From a virus, in the IMG/VR virus record IMGVR_UViG_3300021959_000045, positions 1 to 56,998 of that record: a stretch of 56,998 nucleotides of DNA. One strand, written 5' to 3'. The position numbers and the translations under genes are program-made. This document shows, in pieces, positions 27,123 through 31,517 of this stretch; the first letter of the stretch is position 1; every line of letters starts with the position of its first letter. Below the pieces are notes generated by a model. It saw only the letters and a list, made by a program, of their open reading frames with translations. It did not search any database and was not told the origin of the DNA.

Positions 27123-27731
27123 ATGGCAAATCTTTTTCAGAAAGTAGAACAACAAGCATTCAGAGCGGGGATTACTCCTCGTTCACGGGAATCTCGTGAG
27201 TGGTTCCGCAAGAAAGTGCAGAATATGTCGATAAATAGGCGCAGTTTAATGCGCGACGATCCTATCGAACAGAAAGCTGCGGGAGCGGGGCGCCAAAGAA
27301 ATGTGATTGGTAAGATGGCGATGTTTTTCTATGATGCGAAACATAAGGACACTCTGCCCTATTGGGATGCGTTTCCTCTCATAATTATTGTGGGACCAGC
27401 AGCCAAAGGATTCTATGGATTGAATTTGCATTATTTACCAATCGCATTAAGGGCAAAATTTCTTGATTCGTTGATGGACTATACTTCTGACAATACTTAT
27501 GATGAGAACACAAGGCTTTTAATTACATATAAAAGGTTACAGAAAACTTCGAAAATGAAATATTTTAAACCTTGTTTTAAACACTACTTGACATCTCAGG
27601 TAGAACAGAAATTAGCATTTGTTCCGTCCCCCGAATGGGAGATTGCAACCTTTTTGCCAACGGCACAATGGAAAGGAGCAGGACAATCAGTTGTTTACAG
27701 AAACTCAAGAGAAAGTATAAGTGGCTTATAG
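27123..27731 (+). CDS. Conserved T4-like phage protein, function unassigned
   Basis: 202 residues starting 4 nt after gp4. A basic N-terminal helix (FRKKVQNMSINRRSLMRD) is followed by a conserved core, DTLPYWDAFPLIIIVGPAAK and FYGLNLHYLPIALRAKFLDS, then FKPCFKHYLTSQVEQ. This core is widespread in marine T4-like phages. Position beside gp4 raises the DNA-end protector gp2 as a possibility, but I see no motif that proves it. No catalytic motif or membrane segment is evident. The 3' end overlaps the next gene by 11 nt. Confidence 0.75.
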   Translation: MANLFQKVEQQAFRAGITPRSRESREWFRKKVQNMSINRRSLMRDDPIEQKAAGAGRQRNVIGKMAMFFYDAKHKDTLPYWDAFPLIIIVGPAAKGFYGLNLHYLPIALRAKFLDSLMDYTSDNTYDENTRLLITYKRLQKTSKMKYFKPCFKHYLTSQVEQKLAFVPSPEWEIATFLPTAQWKGAGQSVVYRNSRESISGL

Positions 27732-28395
27732 TATAGAACAATTAAAAGATACTGTCAATCGAGCGGGTGGGATTGCGAAAAGTAACCTATTTCGTATCAT
27801 CTTGCCAGCACAAGAACAGGCCCGAAATCTCGATTTACTATGCCGGTCTACGACTATGCCCAGCAGATCTATACTGACTAATGATAGGACAATTGGTATT
27901 ACTAAGAACACAGTAGCATATGGTTATGATAAATCTAATGTAACTATGACCTTTCTGGTACTTAATGAACCTTATGTTAGGTACTTTTTTGAAGAGTGGA
28001 TGAATTTAATCGTTGACAACCAAACTTATCAGTTAGGATATTATTCTGACTATACTCGTAATATTAATATACAACAACTAAAACCAACTACCGACATAGA
28101 AACTTTGGCAACAAAAATAACATCGGGCAGTGATCCCACAGCAAGTACTTCGGGGAATAAACAAGATGTCAACATTCCCTACAAAGTAATTTATAATTGT
28201 TTATTAGAGGATGCTTATCCGATTGCAATGTCGGGTCCACAACTTAATGACAATCCAGACCAGTTAGTAGAAATCTCAGTTGATTTTGTCTATAAAAACT
28301 GGAGAGAAGTAAACTCTGCCAACAGTTTAAGTTCCGATTTGTCAAGAAACCAACAAAAGAACCTGATCACCAACAGCAAACCACCAGATATTTAA
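27721..28395 (+). CDS. 54: Tail-tube fold protein, gp54/gp19-like (tube initiator)
   Basis: 224 residues with a GTG start, since the reading frame begins VAYSIEQLKDTVNRAGGI within the end of the previous gene. The pattern 'AKSNLFRIILP...LLCRSTTMPSR', VTMTFLVLNEPYVRYFFEEW and a final strand VEISVDFVYKNW is that of T4 gp19/gp54 tube proteins (F.v.i...l..C..t.lP; v..tf.v.nd...r..fe.W). Location among baseplate genes favours gp54, the protein that starts tube polymerisation on gp48. The major tube protein gp19 would be elsewhere. Confidence in fold is higher than in the gp54 name. Confidence 0.65.
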   Translation: MAYSIEQLKDTVNRAGGIAKSNLFRIILPAQEQARNLDLLCRSTTMPSRSILTNDRTIGITKNTVAYGYDKSNVTMTFLVLNEPYVRYFFEEWMNLIVDNQTYQLGYYSDYTRNINIQQLKPTTDIETLATKITSGSDPTASTSGNKQDVNIPYKVIYNCLLEDAYPIAMSGPQLNDNPDQLVEISVDFVYKNWREVNSANSLSSDLSRNQQKNLITNSKPPDI

Positions 28396-28430: not shown

Positions 28431-29138
28431 ATGGCGTTACCTAAACTCAATGACTCACCCAAATATTCATTAGTTATACCATCAACCCAACAAACGGTTC
28501 ACTTCCGTCCTTATCTTGTAAAAGAAGAAAAAGTATTATTGATGGCTTTTGAATCGGGCGATGAACAATCAACTTTACGTGCCGTATTGGATACGATTGA
28601 ATCTTGTATACAAGACAAGTTCAATAAAAATAAATTGACAACTTTTGATGTCGAGTATATGTTTACTCAAATACGAGCTAAGTCAGTTGGCGAGAAAACT
28701 AAGATCGGTGTTAAATGTGAACATTGTGGAATACAAAATGAAATTGAAATAAATTTAGAAGAGGTTCAGGTCAGTCACCCAGAAAAGAAGTCTAATATCA
28801 TTAAACTTACTGATGATATTTCTTTGGAAATGCGATACCCATCTTATAGACATCTTGCTGAAGGAAATGTGGAATTAAACAATTCGCCCAAAAACGCATT
28901 CACATTAATTACTAAATGTATTGATGCGATTCGCACAGAAGACGAACGAATTAGTTTAGATGATGAACCCCAAGAATCTGTTGATGAATTTTTAGAATCA
29001 ATGACAGGGGGCCAGTTCGCAATGTTGGCAGAGTTTCTACAGGACATGCCAAAAACAACTTATCATTTACAATTCACATGTACAGACTGTAAAGAGGAAA
29101 ACGATAGAACAATTGAGGGTATGCAGAATTTTTTTTGA
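28431..29138 (+). CDS. 26: gp26-type baseplate/tail assembly protein (predicted G-like chaperone)
   Basis: 235 residues (T4 gp26: 208). It contains the T4_baseplate family core (FRPYLVKEEKVLLMAFES, VEYMFTQIRAKSVGEKTKIG) and two Cys pairs, Cys96-Cys99 (CEHC) and Cys217-Cys220 (CTDC), that could bind one zinc. It starts after a good Shine-Dalgarno (CGGAG). It ends with AAT TTT TTT TGA: the slippery UUUUUUU at 29129-29135 sits directly before the stop. A -1 shift would continue into the next ORF and give a 298-aa fusion. The gene lies directly before the tape measure, as G does in lambda. Confidence 0.8.
   Translation: MALPKLNDSPKYSLVIPSTQQTVHFRPYLVKEEKVLLMAFESGDEQSTLRAVLDTIESCIQDKFNKNKLTTFDVEYMFTQIRAKSVGEKTKIGVKCEHCGIQNEIEINLEEVQVSHPEKKSNIIKLTDDISLEMRYPSYRHLAEGNVELNNSPKNAFTLITKCIDAIRTEDERISLDDEPQESVDEFLESMTGGQFAMLAEFLQDMPKTTYHLQFTCTDCKEENDRTIEGMQNFF
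29129..29135 (+). promoter_or_regulatory. Predicted -1 ribosomal frameshift site (UUUUUUU) at the gp26 stop
   Basis: The heptamer fits X XXY YYZ exactly in the gp26 frame (AAT TTT TTT), followed at once by TGA. The -1 frame runs TTG ATG TGC... through the downstream ORF to 29326. Confidence 0.6.
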
Positions 29139-29326
29139 TGTGCCTCTCTCATGATAACTTAGTTAATCATTATCAATTGAATTTTCAATTGATGCAACAC
29201 CATAAATACTCTTTGACAGAGTTGAATGAGATGTTGCCTTGGGAGAGGGAAATTTACGTCATGATGTTGATACAACACGTTAAGGAAGAAAACGAAAGGA
29301 TTAAACGAGCAAATGGCGGAAGATAA
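29138..29326 (+). CDS. Small T-like tail chaperone extension (gp51 position)
   Basis: 62 residues from the ATG at 29138, which overlaps the gp26 stop (TGATG). The sequence includes LVNHYQLNFQLMQHHKYSLT, then ELNEMLPWEREIYVMMLIQH and a charged helical tail. The 'L..M.PWE...y' pattern resembles the T part of GT tail chaperones. It can be made alone from the overlapping ATG or as a -1 fusion to gp26. It overlaps the tape-measure start by 14 nt. In T4 the equivalent place in the hub cluster is held by gp51; I cannot prove that relation. Confidence 0.7.
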   Translation: MCLSHDNLVNHYQLNFQLMQHHKYSLTELNEMLPWEREIYVMMLIQHVKEENERIKRANGGR

Positions 29327-31517
29327 TAACATAACACGAATAGACGGAGAGTTGTTGCCGGCTACTTCTAATCTGATGGAAGTGACCAAAGCGTTACAGA
29401 TAGCAAACTCCAGTTTCGAAAAAAGTGTTGTCAGTGTAGAAAAAGTTCTCCCCACGGAAGACCTTGTCGTCCAAATGGACGATCCTTTCCGTAACATTCT
29501 TGAGTCAATGGACCAAACTCTTAAACAAATTTCTAATCATATTAGAATGTTTATGGACGGTCTTCTGAATACATTTTTTGATATAAATGAAAACCAAGTT
29601 CGGACTATAATTATCCAAGAAAAACAACTAGAACTTGATGACGAAAAGTTTACATATCAGAAAGATAAAGACCAAGATGAAAGACAAACCGAAAGTAAAG
29701 GAACCGAAAGTGAAGGATTCGGATCAGAACCCAAAGAACGTGAGGGGTTTTTGGGTGAAGTAGATAAGGCTCAAAAGGATTTTGAAGAGAAAGGTTTTTT
29801 AAATTATGTTTCTGAATTAACGGGGATTGATGGCACTATTAAGATGATTACAGATAAAATAGCAAGGTTCGCACCGTTAGTTATGCCACTTTTGACTGGT
29901 CTTGGTGCCGCCTTCAGTTCACTTTTCGCTGGCATTGTTGCTACTATGTCTGCCATTGGTGCGGCCCTTGGTACACTTGTCACTGGCATTGTTGCTGCTT
30001 TGAGCCCAATTATTGCGGCCGTGGGTGCAGTTCTTTTGCCGGTTGCTTTAATTGTTGCCGCGGCAGTGGCAACAATCGCGTTAATCAAAGGGTTTGTTGA
30101 TGGATTTACTGCTAACGCAGACGATGGGTTTGCCACAAAAATTCTAAGAGGATATACTCGGGCCATTGAGACACTGCTTGATCTGTTTATCATGTGGCCG
30201 CTGGATCAATTAAAGAACCTTGTTTCTTGGATCGCCGGAGCACTTGGGTTTGCTGATGTCGAGAAGGCACTGGACAGCTTTAGTTATCAAGAATCGTTTG
30301 CCGAAATAATGGATAGTTTCGAAGAATGGATAACTTCTATACCCACTGCTATTTCTGAATTTTTCTCCGACATGATCGACTCCCTCGACATTGGATCGAT
30401 CATAGATACTATTGGGGAAAAACTATCTAATTTCATAGAAACTATTGGGGAAAAACTATCTAATTTCTTCGAACCAGTCTTCGAACCAGTCATATCAATC
30501 ATAAAAACTATTGGGGAAAAACTATCTAATTTCTTCGAACCAGTCATATCAATCATAAAAACTATTGGGGAAAAACTATCTAATTTCTTCGAACCAGTCA
30601 TATCAATGTTCTCCTTTATTGGTGATATCCTAGATGATGCCGGTAATGCGATCGCAGAGTTTTTTTCGGGCGATTTCTTTGACCTATCAAAAATCAAGAG
30701 CATGTTGACTAACCTGTTCGCTGAGATTGGTGTACCCCGTATAGAGTTTGATGTTCCTGTTATTGGTAAGGTGGGGTTTGGTCCTTTCTATCCGTTTATG
30801 CCTGATCAAGTTACTGATCCTGACAGTGGGAAAACACTTAACACTACCGTTGTGAGTGCAACAGAATCAGCAGATACCGAGTACACAACTACTATGGATT
30901 CTGCTGGAAATGTTGTGGAATCGGGCAACGAGAGAATCACAACGGCGATCACTTCATTAGATTCTGGATCTGTTGGAAACCCATACTCAGAAGGTATGAG
31001 TTCGAGTTTCCAACAGCAAGAATTGGTTACAGAGAATGGTGGTGACGCGAAGTTCAAAAACTCGTTAGGTGCTTTTGATTTTGAAAAAGGCGAGGGAACT
31101 ATTAGTATATCTCAGACCGACCCTTCTAACGAACTTAATGAAATTATGCAAGAGTATAAGGTAAGCGGTATTACTTTTGGTCAAGTGAGACGATTGATTG
31201 ATGACGGTGCCTCACCAGATGAAGTTGAAATGTTTTTAAAAAATAAACAGAAATCCATCTTCGATAAGCTTAGTGATTTTTTATCAGCACCAGCAGAGAC
31301 TACACCCATTGATGTTGCGGCCGTTGAAACTAACCGAATGGATACCGCAAACGAACTTGCTGTTCAAACCGCAGAAAGAGAAGAAACCAAAGCGACACAA
31401 TCACAACAACCTATTAATGTTGTCAATGCGCCCACATCTAATGTGAGTAATGTCAGTCAAAGCACTGCATTCTTTGATACCCCATCGGCTGTCGATGGTC
31501 TTTCAATGAGTTACTAA
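29313..31517 (+). CDS. 29: Tail tape-measure / hub protein (gp29-like)
   Basis: 734 residues. Residues about 1-150 are helical and charged. Residues about 185-265 are strongly hydrophobic and Ala/Gly-rich (LFAGIVATMSAIGAALGTLV; VGAVLLPVALIVAAAVATIA), as in tape measures that insert in the host membrane. Near 365-430 there are four imperfect repeats of TIGEKLSNFFEPVISIIK. The C-terminal region is Ser/Thr/Gln-rich and ends at a terminator. It follows the gp26/T-like pair, the conserved order chaperone-tape measure. It is longer than T4 gp29 (590). A gp28-like function cannot be excluded. Confidence 0.75.
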   Translation: MAEDNNITRIDGELLPATSNLMEVTKALQIANSSFEKSVVSVEKVLPTEDLVVQMDDPFRNILESMDQTLKQISNHIRMFMDGLLNTFFDINENQVRTIIIQEKQLELDDEKFTYQKDKDQDERQTESKGTESEGFGSEPKEREGFLGEVDKAQKDFEEKGFLNYVSELTGIDGTIKMITDKIARFAPLVMPLLTGLGAAFSSLFAGIVATMSAIGAALGTLVTGIVAALSPIIAAVGAVLLPVALIVAAAVATIALIKGFVDGFTANADDGFATKILRGYTRAIETLLDLFIMWPLDQLKNLVSWIAGALGFADVEKALDSFSYQESFAEIMDSFEEWITSIPTAISEFFSDMIDSLDIGSIIDTIGEKLSNFIETIGEKLSNFFEPVFEPVISIIKTIGEKLSNFFEPVISIIKTIGEKLSNFFEPVISMFSFIGDILDDAGNAIAEFFSGDFFDLSKIKSMLTNLFAEIGVPRIEFDVPVIGKVGFGPFYPFMPDQVTDPDSGKTLNTTVVSATESADTEYTTTMDSAGNVVESGNERITTAITSLDSGSVGNPYSEGMSSSFQQQELVTENGGDAKFKNSLGAFDFEKGEGTISISQTDPSNELNEIMQEYKVSGITFGQVRRLIDDGASPDEVEMFLKNKQKSIFDKLSDFLSAPAETTPIDVAAVETNRMDTANELAVQTAEREETKATQSQQPINVVNAPTSNVSNVSQSTAFFDTPSAVDGLSMSY
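30408..30608 (+). repeat. In-frame tape-measure repeats (TIGEKLSNF units)
   Basis: The 27-bp core ACTATTGGGGAAAAACTATC... starts at 30408, 30441, 30507 and 30561. Intervals are 33, 66 and 54 bp, all multiples of three. The last two units are nearly identical over 54 bp. Each encodes an amphipathic helix. Confidence 0.9.

Follow-up and report, generated by a model that had tools for sequence, protein, structure and literature searches.

The gp26 gene of a marine T4-like phage, read here in IMG/VR virus record IMGVR_UViG_3300021959_000045 (56,998 bases, the whole of which is called the window below), very probably encodes a tail assembly chaperone that has a long form made by a −1 ribosomal slip at U_UUU_UUU, and we put the probability of this reading at about 0.92. 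From the sequence signals, their conservation, the coding −1 frame and the homology to T4 gp26 and gp51, we infer that slippage occurs at this site. In the proposed mechanism, most ribosomes would halt at UGA to give a short form of 235 aa, and a minority would go back one base on the heptamer to give a 298-aa form with a T-like domain, a low-efficiency event that may be aided by the Shine-Dalgarno (SD)-like GAGGG, which lies about 10 nt before the heptamer, and possibly by RNA structure beyond it. If the two forms act as lambda G and GT do, the tape measure protein, the product of the next gene, would be coated by many short-form copies, and a few long-form copies would recruit tail tube subunits.

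The gene order by profile match is phrog_45 (tail tube), phrog_150 (gp26), phrog_634 (extension) and phrog_58 (tape measure), so that the chaperone gene sits between the tail tube and tape measure genes, as required for the lambda G/GT type (Table 1). The match of gp26 to PF12322 covers residues 10-235 with an E-value of 6e-59 and 199.8 bits (curated cutoff, 24.5), and that to phrog_150 has an E-value of 1e-61. The phrog_150 profile runs about 47 columns beyond the end of gp26, which matches the extension and hints at fused members within this family. The extension itself matches phrog_634 ("baseplate hub assembly catalyst", the T4 gp51 family) with an E-value of 3.4e-27. The first-pass annotation, made from the window sequence only, had equated the order of chaperone, extension and tape measure with lambda G-GT-H, and this is borne out by the gene families together with the conserved site and frame, the scarcity of extension starts, T4 gp51 and the HK97 neighbour described below. 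The tape measure gene was also found to contain direct repeats of 54 nt at 30412-30585, encoding IGEKLSNFFEPV..., of which those at 30478-30531 and 30532-30585 are identical to each other; changes in their copy number could alter tail length.

Table 1. Coordinates of the features at the gp26 locus in the window.
Feature	Position	Strand	Evidence
Tail tube protein gene (upstream neighbour, lambda V position)	27721..28395	+	phrog_45 tail tube, E 4.5e-28
gp26, putative short tail assembly chaperone (TAC-N / G-like), 235 aa	28431..29138	+	PF12322, phrog_150, AlphaFold, Foldseek
SD-like GAGGG, putative dnaX-like frameshift stimulator	29115..29119	+	about 9-10 nt upstream of heptamer
Slippery heptamer U_UUU_UUU, in gp26 frame	29129..29135	+	sequence; same aligned codon in 183/183 loci of this arrangement
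−1 frame extension: T-like domain (TAC-C, "gp51" family), 63 aa; predicted fusion 298 aa	29135..29326	+	phrog_634; open in 73/73 clusters
gp26 stop codon UGA, directly 3' of heptamer	29136..29138	+	sequence; stop 0-1 codons past heptamer in 70/73 clusters
ATG overlapping gp26 stop (TGATG), possible separate start of small ORF here	29138..29140	+	sequence
Two adjacent predicted RNA hairpins downstream of slip site	29151..29194	+	−11.1 kcal/mol, z −2.5 for 29141-29200
Tape measure protein gene, 734 aa; 14 nt overlap with extension	29313..31517	+	phrog_58 and other tape measure families, E 2e-15

The fold of gp26 was consistent with the assignment. The AlphaFold model, built in a structure run that included sequences from the window and the IMG/VR loci only, had a pLDDT of 88, and a Foldseek comparison with the PDB returned the HK97 tail assembly chaperone (2OB9) as the sole high-probability entry (0.97), although with an E-value of 0.17. 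This match, with a TM-score of 0.52 on the target and 12% identity, covers about 100 residues of the gp26 model, and it agrees with a TAC fold for gp26 without proving it. A sequence search of the PDB found no solved relative of gp26.

The last codons of gp26 are ATG CAG AAT TTT TTT TGA, in which a run of eight T occupies 29129-29136, so the in-frame UUUUUUU directly before the stop codon, as read in the first-pass annotation, is confirmed. The open −1 frame spans 29117-29326, and a slip on the heptamer would add 63 aa to the 235 aa of gp26 ahead of the tape measure gene, in agreement with the 298-aa fusion through the next ORF that had been predicted. Among the 68 ORFs of at least 90 aa in the window, gp26 alone has, close to its end, an in-frame heptamer of U or A only together with an extension open in the −1 frame. 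Nevertheless, TTTTTTY heptamers are common within the window (65 observed compared with about 90 expected by shuffling), which makes the argument from a single genome weak, and it is conservation across relatives that rescues it.

Loci from GenBank phages and IMG/VR were compared, and the extension domain was present in 207 sequences, counting that of the window. T_TTT_TT[C/T/A] was found in frame at the exactly aligned codon in 183 of them, and these comprise every locus with the split gp26/extension arrangement (183/183), so that the slippery site proved conserved when the gp26 stop region was aligned across relatives, as the first-pass annotation had proposed to do. Chance as an explanation of the heptamer is rejected on the strength of this conservation. 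The remaining 24 sequences come from 20 Ackermannviridae loci, from Vibrio phage K369 and from three single-ORF fusions of the domain, namely T4 gp51, phiAS4 gp51 and the protein of Campylobacter phage WX1. When grouped at 85% nucleotide identity, the 183 loci fall into 73 clusters, which represent Kyanoviridae, schizo-T4, Aeh1-like, Rhizobiales, Pseudomonas, Stenotrophomonas and Acidovorax phages, and the heptamer is TTTTTTC in 60, TTTTTTT in 11 and TTTTTTA in 2 of them. The GAT_TTT_TTY site is present in Schizotequatrovirus, Cinqassovirus, Pootjesviridae, Chakrabartyvirus, Menderavirus and Busanvirus phages. Seven kinds of codon precede the heptamer (AGT, GAT, AAT, TCT, GGT, CAT and GCT), differing in the amino acid encoded and sharing the final T. 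TTT encodes the first Phe in all 73 clusters, compared with 436/722 elsewhere in the same genes (p 1e-15, this and the p-value given below being descriptive only, because the codon statistics treat kindred clusters as independent). The two clusters with TTA encode F-L in place of F-F in the zero frame, and the slippery heptamer and the FF of the −1 frame are still kept. Apart from the shift site, Phe-Phe pairs in the gp26 genes of the 73 clusters are encoded by TTT TTC in 0 of 47 cases (TTC TTT, 28; TTT TTT, 11; TTC TTC, 8), a pattern that would suit avoidance of slippery pairs, although many of the 47 are probably homologous to one another.

An SD-like tetramer (GAGG or AAGG) starting 13 nt upstream of the heptamer was found in 68 of the 73 clusters (93%) compared with 13% of control sites, a raw contrast that is inflated because Glu-Gly residues are conserved at this position, and the codon-choice test was relied on instead. 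At the SD-like site, GAG accounts for 35 of 47 Glu codons, compared with 8 of 37 for Glu before Gly elsewhere (p 2e-6), and its share among all Glu codons is 32%. Judging by this codon bias, selection appears to act on the SD-like sequence that lies about 10 nt before the heptamer. The folding downstream of the heptamer across relatives had a mean z of −1.6 compared with +0.2 in a control region. In the window, the z-score of the hairpins is about −1.5 for neighbouring frames and the predicted structure depends on the stretch chosen. RNAalifold over 62 sequences gave no consensus RNA structure downstream of the slip site, and the stems there differ from clade to clade; a common downstream structure was dropped on these grounds. 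Downstream RNA structure may thus be regarded as a candidate stimulator, with its role unproven. S-SM2-like loci (L003, L101-L180) carry a short hairpin, GATCC-ATAT-GGATC, 10 nt past the heptamer, which varies to GGTCC-ATAT-GGACC with G-C and A-U at one pair, and this hairpin is a possible lineage-specific stimulator.

The usual database annotation holds that the small ORF (gp51) is an independent gene, which would be expressed by stop-start coupling at TGATG with the U-run being incidental. The window genome itself allows this on paper, since its ATG overlaps the gp26 stop and coupled reinitiation there could also yield a small protein of 62 aa, and a separate "baseplate hub assembly catalyst" is annotated in many records. 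However, ATG is absent from the first 12 codons of the −1 frame in 46 of the 73 clusters, and ATG, GTG and TTG are all absent from the first nine in 44, so that independent initiation is rejected as the main route because most relatives are without a start. The conserved peptide begins instead at the heptamer, which is invariant. No −1 stop occurs within the first 49 codons in any of the 73 clusters, and in codons 3-12 of this frame, which precede any ATG in most relatives, third positions vary most (1.54 bits compared with 0.75 at second positions). Homology reaches up to the heptamer in Pelagibacter phage Mosig and in phage C48C1, where the annotated starts lie 30-75 nt past the gp26 stop, inside the conserved domain. 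The SD-like element, at about 20 nt from the ATG at 29138, is too distant to serve initiation, and T4 gp51 holds a gp26-like part within the same ORF. We consider an independent small gene improbable on this evidence, and translation of the −1 frame as a fusion with gp26 is strongly supported by the pattern of conservation. In cyanophage records, the names given to features overlapping the T-like extension are inconsistent, for example endolysin or lysozyme (features that are possibly the next gene, which overlaps the extension), and some records, such as that of S-WAM1, are without any extension gene.

The fusion could also arise if RNA polymerase, and not the ribosome, slipped on the T run and inserted or deleted a U. 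Transcriptional slippage is known to occur on runs as long as the eight T of the window, whereas most relatives have six T followed by C (TTTTTTC, 60/73 clusters), and the frame-specific heptamer, the adjoining stop and the upstream SD-like element suit ribosomal −1 slippage; we judge the transcriptional route a poor candidate, about as improbable as the independent gene. It has further to be considered that a homopolymer indel, whether by chance or as a sequencing artefact, broke one continuous gene, as homopolymer runs are prone to assembly errors. However, the same break occurs in 73 clusters, including isolate genomes such as P-SSM2, S-SM2, Aeh1, pf16 and ValKK3, and the zero-frame stop follows the heptamer within 0-1 codons in 70 of them. 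Because independent isolate genomes share the break, the artefact reading is already refuted, and we give it hardly any weight.

Ribosomal −1 slippage at the heptamer, the preferred reading, was further compared with the arrangement in T4, in which gp26 (208 aa) and gp51 (249 aa) are separate divergent genes. Frameshifting is reportedly conserved in several T4-like groups, with T4 using genes 26 and 51, as the abstract of a 2022 study is said to state. By hhalign, the first 200 residues of T4-type gp51 correspond to gp26 of the frameshift group as far as the junction (E 4.3e-12), and its last 50 residues correspond to the −1 extension (E 2.8e-12); T4 gp51 alone spans phrog_150 through to the profile end. 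Thus, T4 gp51 and the frameshift product can be aligned over their full lengths, indicating that T4 has the long form as a gene of its own. The C-terminus of T4 gp26 is still ...KEFFELL. In the window, only the T-like part lies downstream of gp26, in the −1 frame, and the separate complete long ORF of the T4 arrangement is absent. Campylobacter phage WX1 (L090, 1156-1896), which belongs to a distant phage group, has gp26 and the T-domain fused in a single ORF, like T4 gp51.

Relatives that keep both ORFs and lack a slippery run, which the first-pass annotation had regarded as a danger to its prediction, are confined, among the loci compared, to Ackermannviridae and one related Vibrio phage, all with a different U-rich site. 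That Ackermannviridae keep both frames without the UUUUUUY heptamer counts against the frameshift reading. At the end of their gp26 (2188-2247 in L097 and about 1480-1530 in each of L188-L206), an invariant ATTTTCAT[TC]TAA replaces the heptamer, and the −1 frame is open and conserved, with no start at the junction; this is probably a different shift site, and its UUUUC recalls that of T7 gene 10. Similarly, gp26 of Vibrio phage K369 (L096, 2190-2408) ends TCA CTT TTC AAG TAA without a canonical heptamer, and its −1 extension is open. A broader proposal, on which we are evenly divided, is that the SD-like GAGG, U_UUU_UUY and the adjacent stop may form a fixed cassette shared by T4-like phages other than those of the T4 and Ackermannviridae groups, perhaps ancestral, in which case the T4 26/51 pair would be a later hard-wired replacement and the SD would be an unreported stimulator setting the ratio of short to long forms.

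These results have a bearing on annotation and on tail-length control. In hundreds of cyanophage records, the extension is annotated separately ("baseplate hub assembly catalyst" or hypothetical) or missed, and its proper annotation would be a joined frameshift product. The long-puzzling T4 gp51 would be explained as the long form of the gp26 chaperone. Furthermore, the locus points to a mechanism of tail-length control that can be tested in ocean phages of very high abundance, and it provides a small natural shift site with a U-heptamer that may be stimulated by an SD.

A 2016 review described G-T frameshifting as widely conserved, with T4 as an exception, and the lambda long form as made at a low level (PMC5009743). 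Chaperone genes of T4-like phages were then identified by Vladimirov, Gautam and Davidson (Virology 2022, doi 10.1016/j.virol.2021.11.003), in a paper that by its title suggests a mechanism other than frameshifting; a later article credits it with poly-T −1 signals in T4-like TAC-N genes (PMC12846349), and another states that some T4-like phages have a short gene and a fused longer gene (PMC10274946). The first-pass annotation had taken the mechanism as not established for T4-type phages. That stands as far as experiment is concerned, because we found no experimental proof of the frameshift in T4-like phages in the literature, but not as prediction, because a frameshift chaperone in these phages was predicted in print in 2022, and the novelty of the present finding is limited. 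As far as the articles citing that work indicate, its T4-like chaperones belong to the same gene family, with two forms (TAC-N and TAC-NC) and a poly-T shift signal, and the present analysis differs in its new genome and wider survey. No mention of a conserved SD-like element was found in the portions consulted of the literature on T4-like chaperones; this element, like the size of the survey, may be new.

Among known systems, T4 has a gp26 homologous to that of the window (PF12322) and a gp51 homologous to the whole frameshift product, the difference being that T4 encodes the long form as a complete separate ORF without a frameshift. The likeness to the HK97 tail assembly chaperone is structural, with the weak E-value given above. 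With lambda gpG/gpGT, the locus shares the order of tail tube, chaperone, extension and tape measure and a predicted −1 shift close to where the short form ends. The lambda slippery sequence is GGGAAAG, whereas the heptamer here is U_UUU_UUY; gp26 is larger, with zinc-ribbon-like CxxC pairs, and the comparison with lambda G or T rests on arrangement rather than on any sequence homology shown for gp26 or the extension. Escherichia coli dnaX, which has an A AAA AAG heptamer, a strong hairpin and a stimulatory SD at 9-10 nt from the heptamer, resembles the present site in the placement of the SD-like sequence and differs from it in that the heptamer here consists of U and the hairpins are lineage-specific only.
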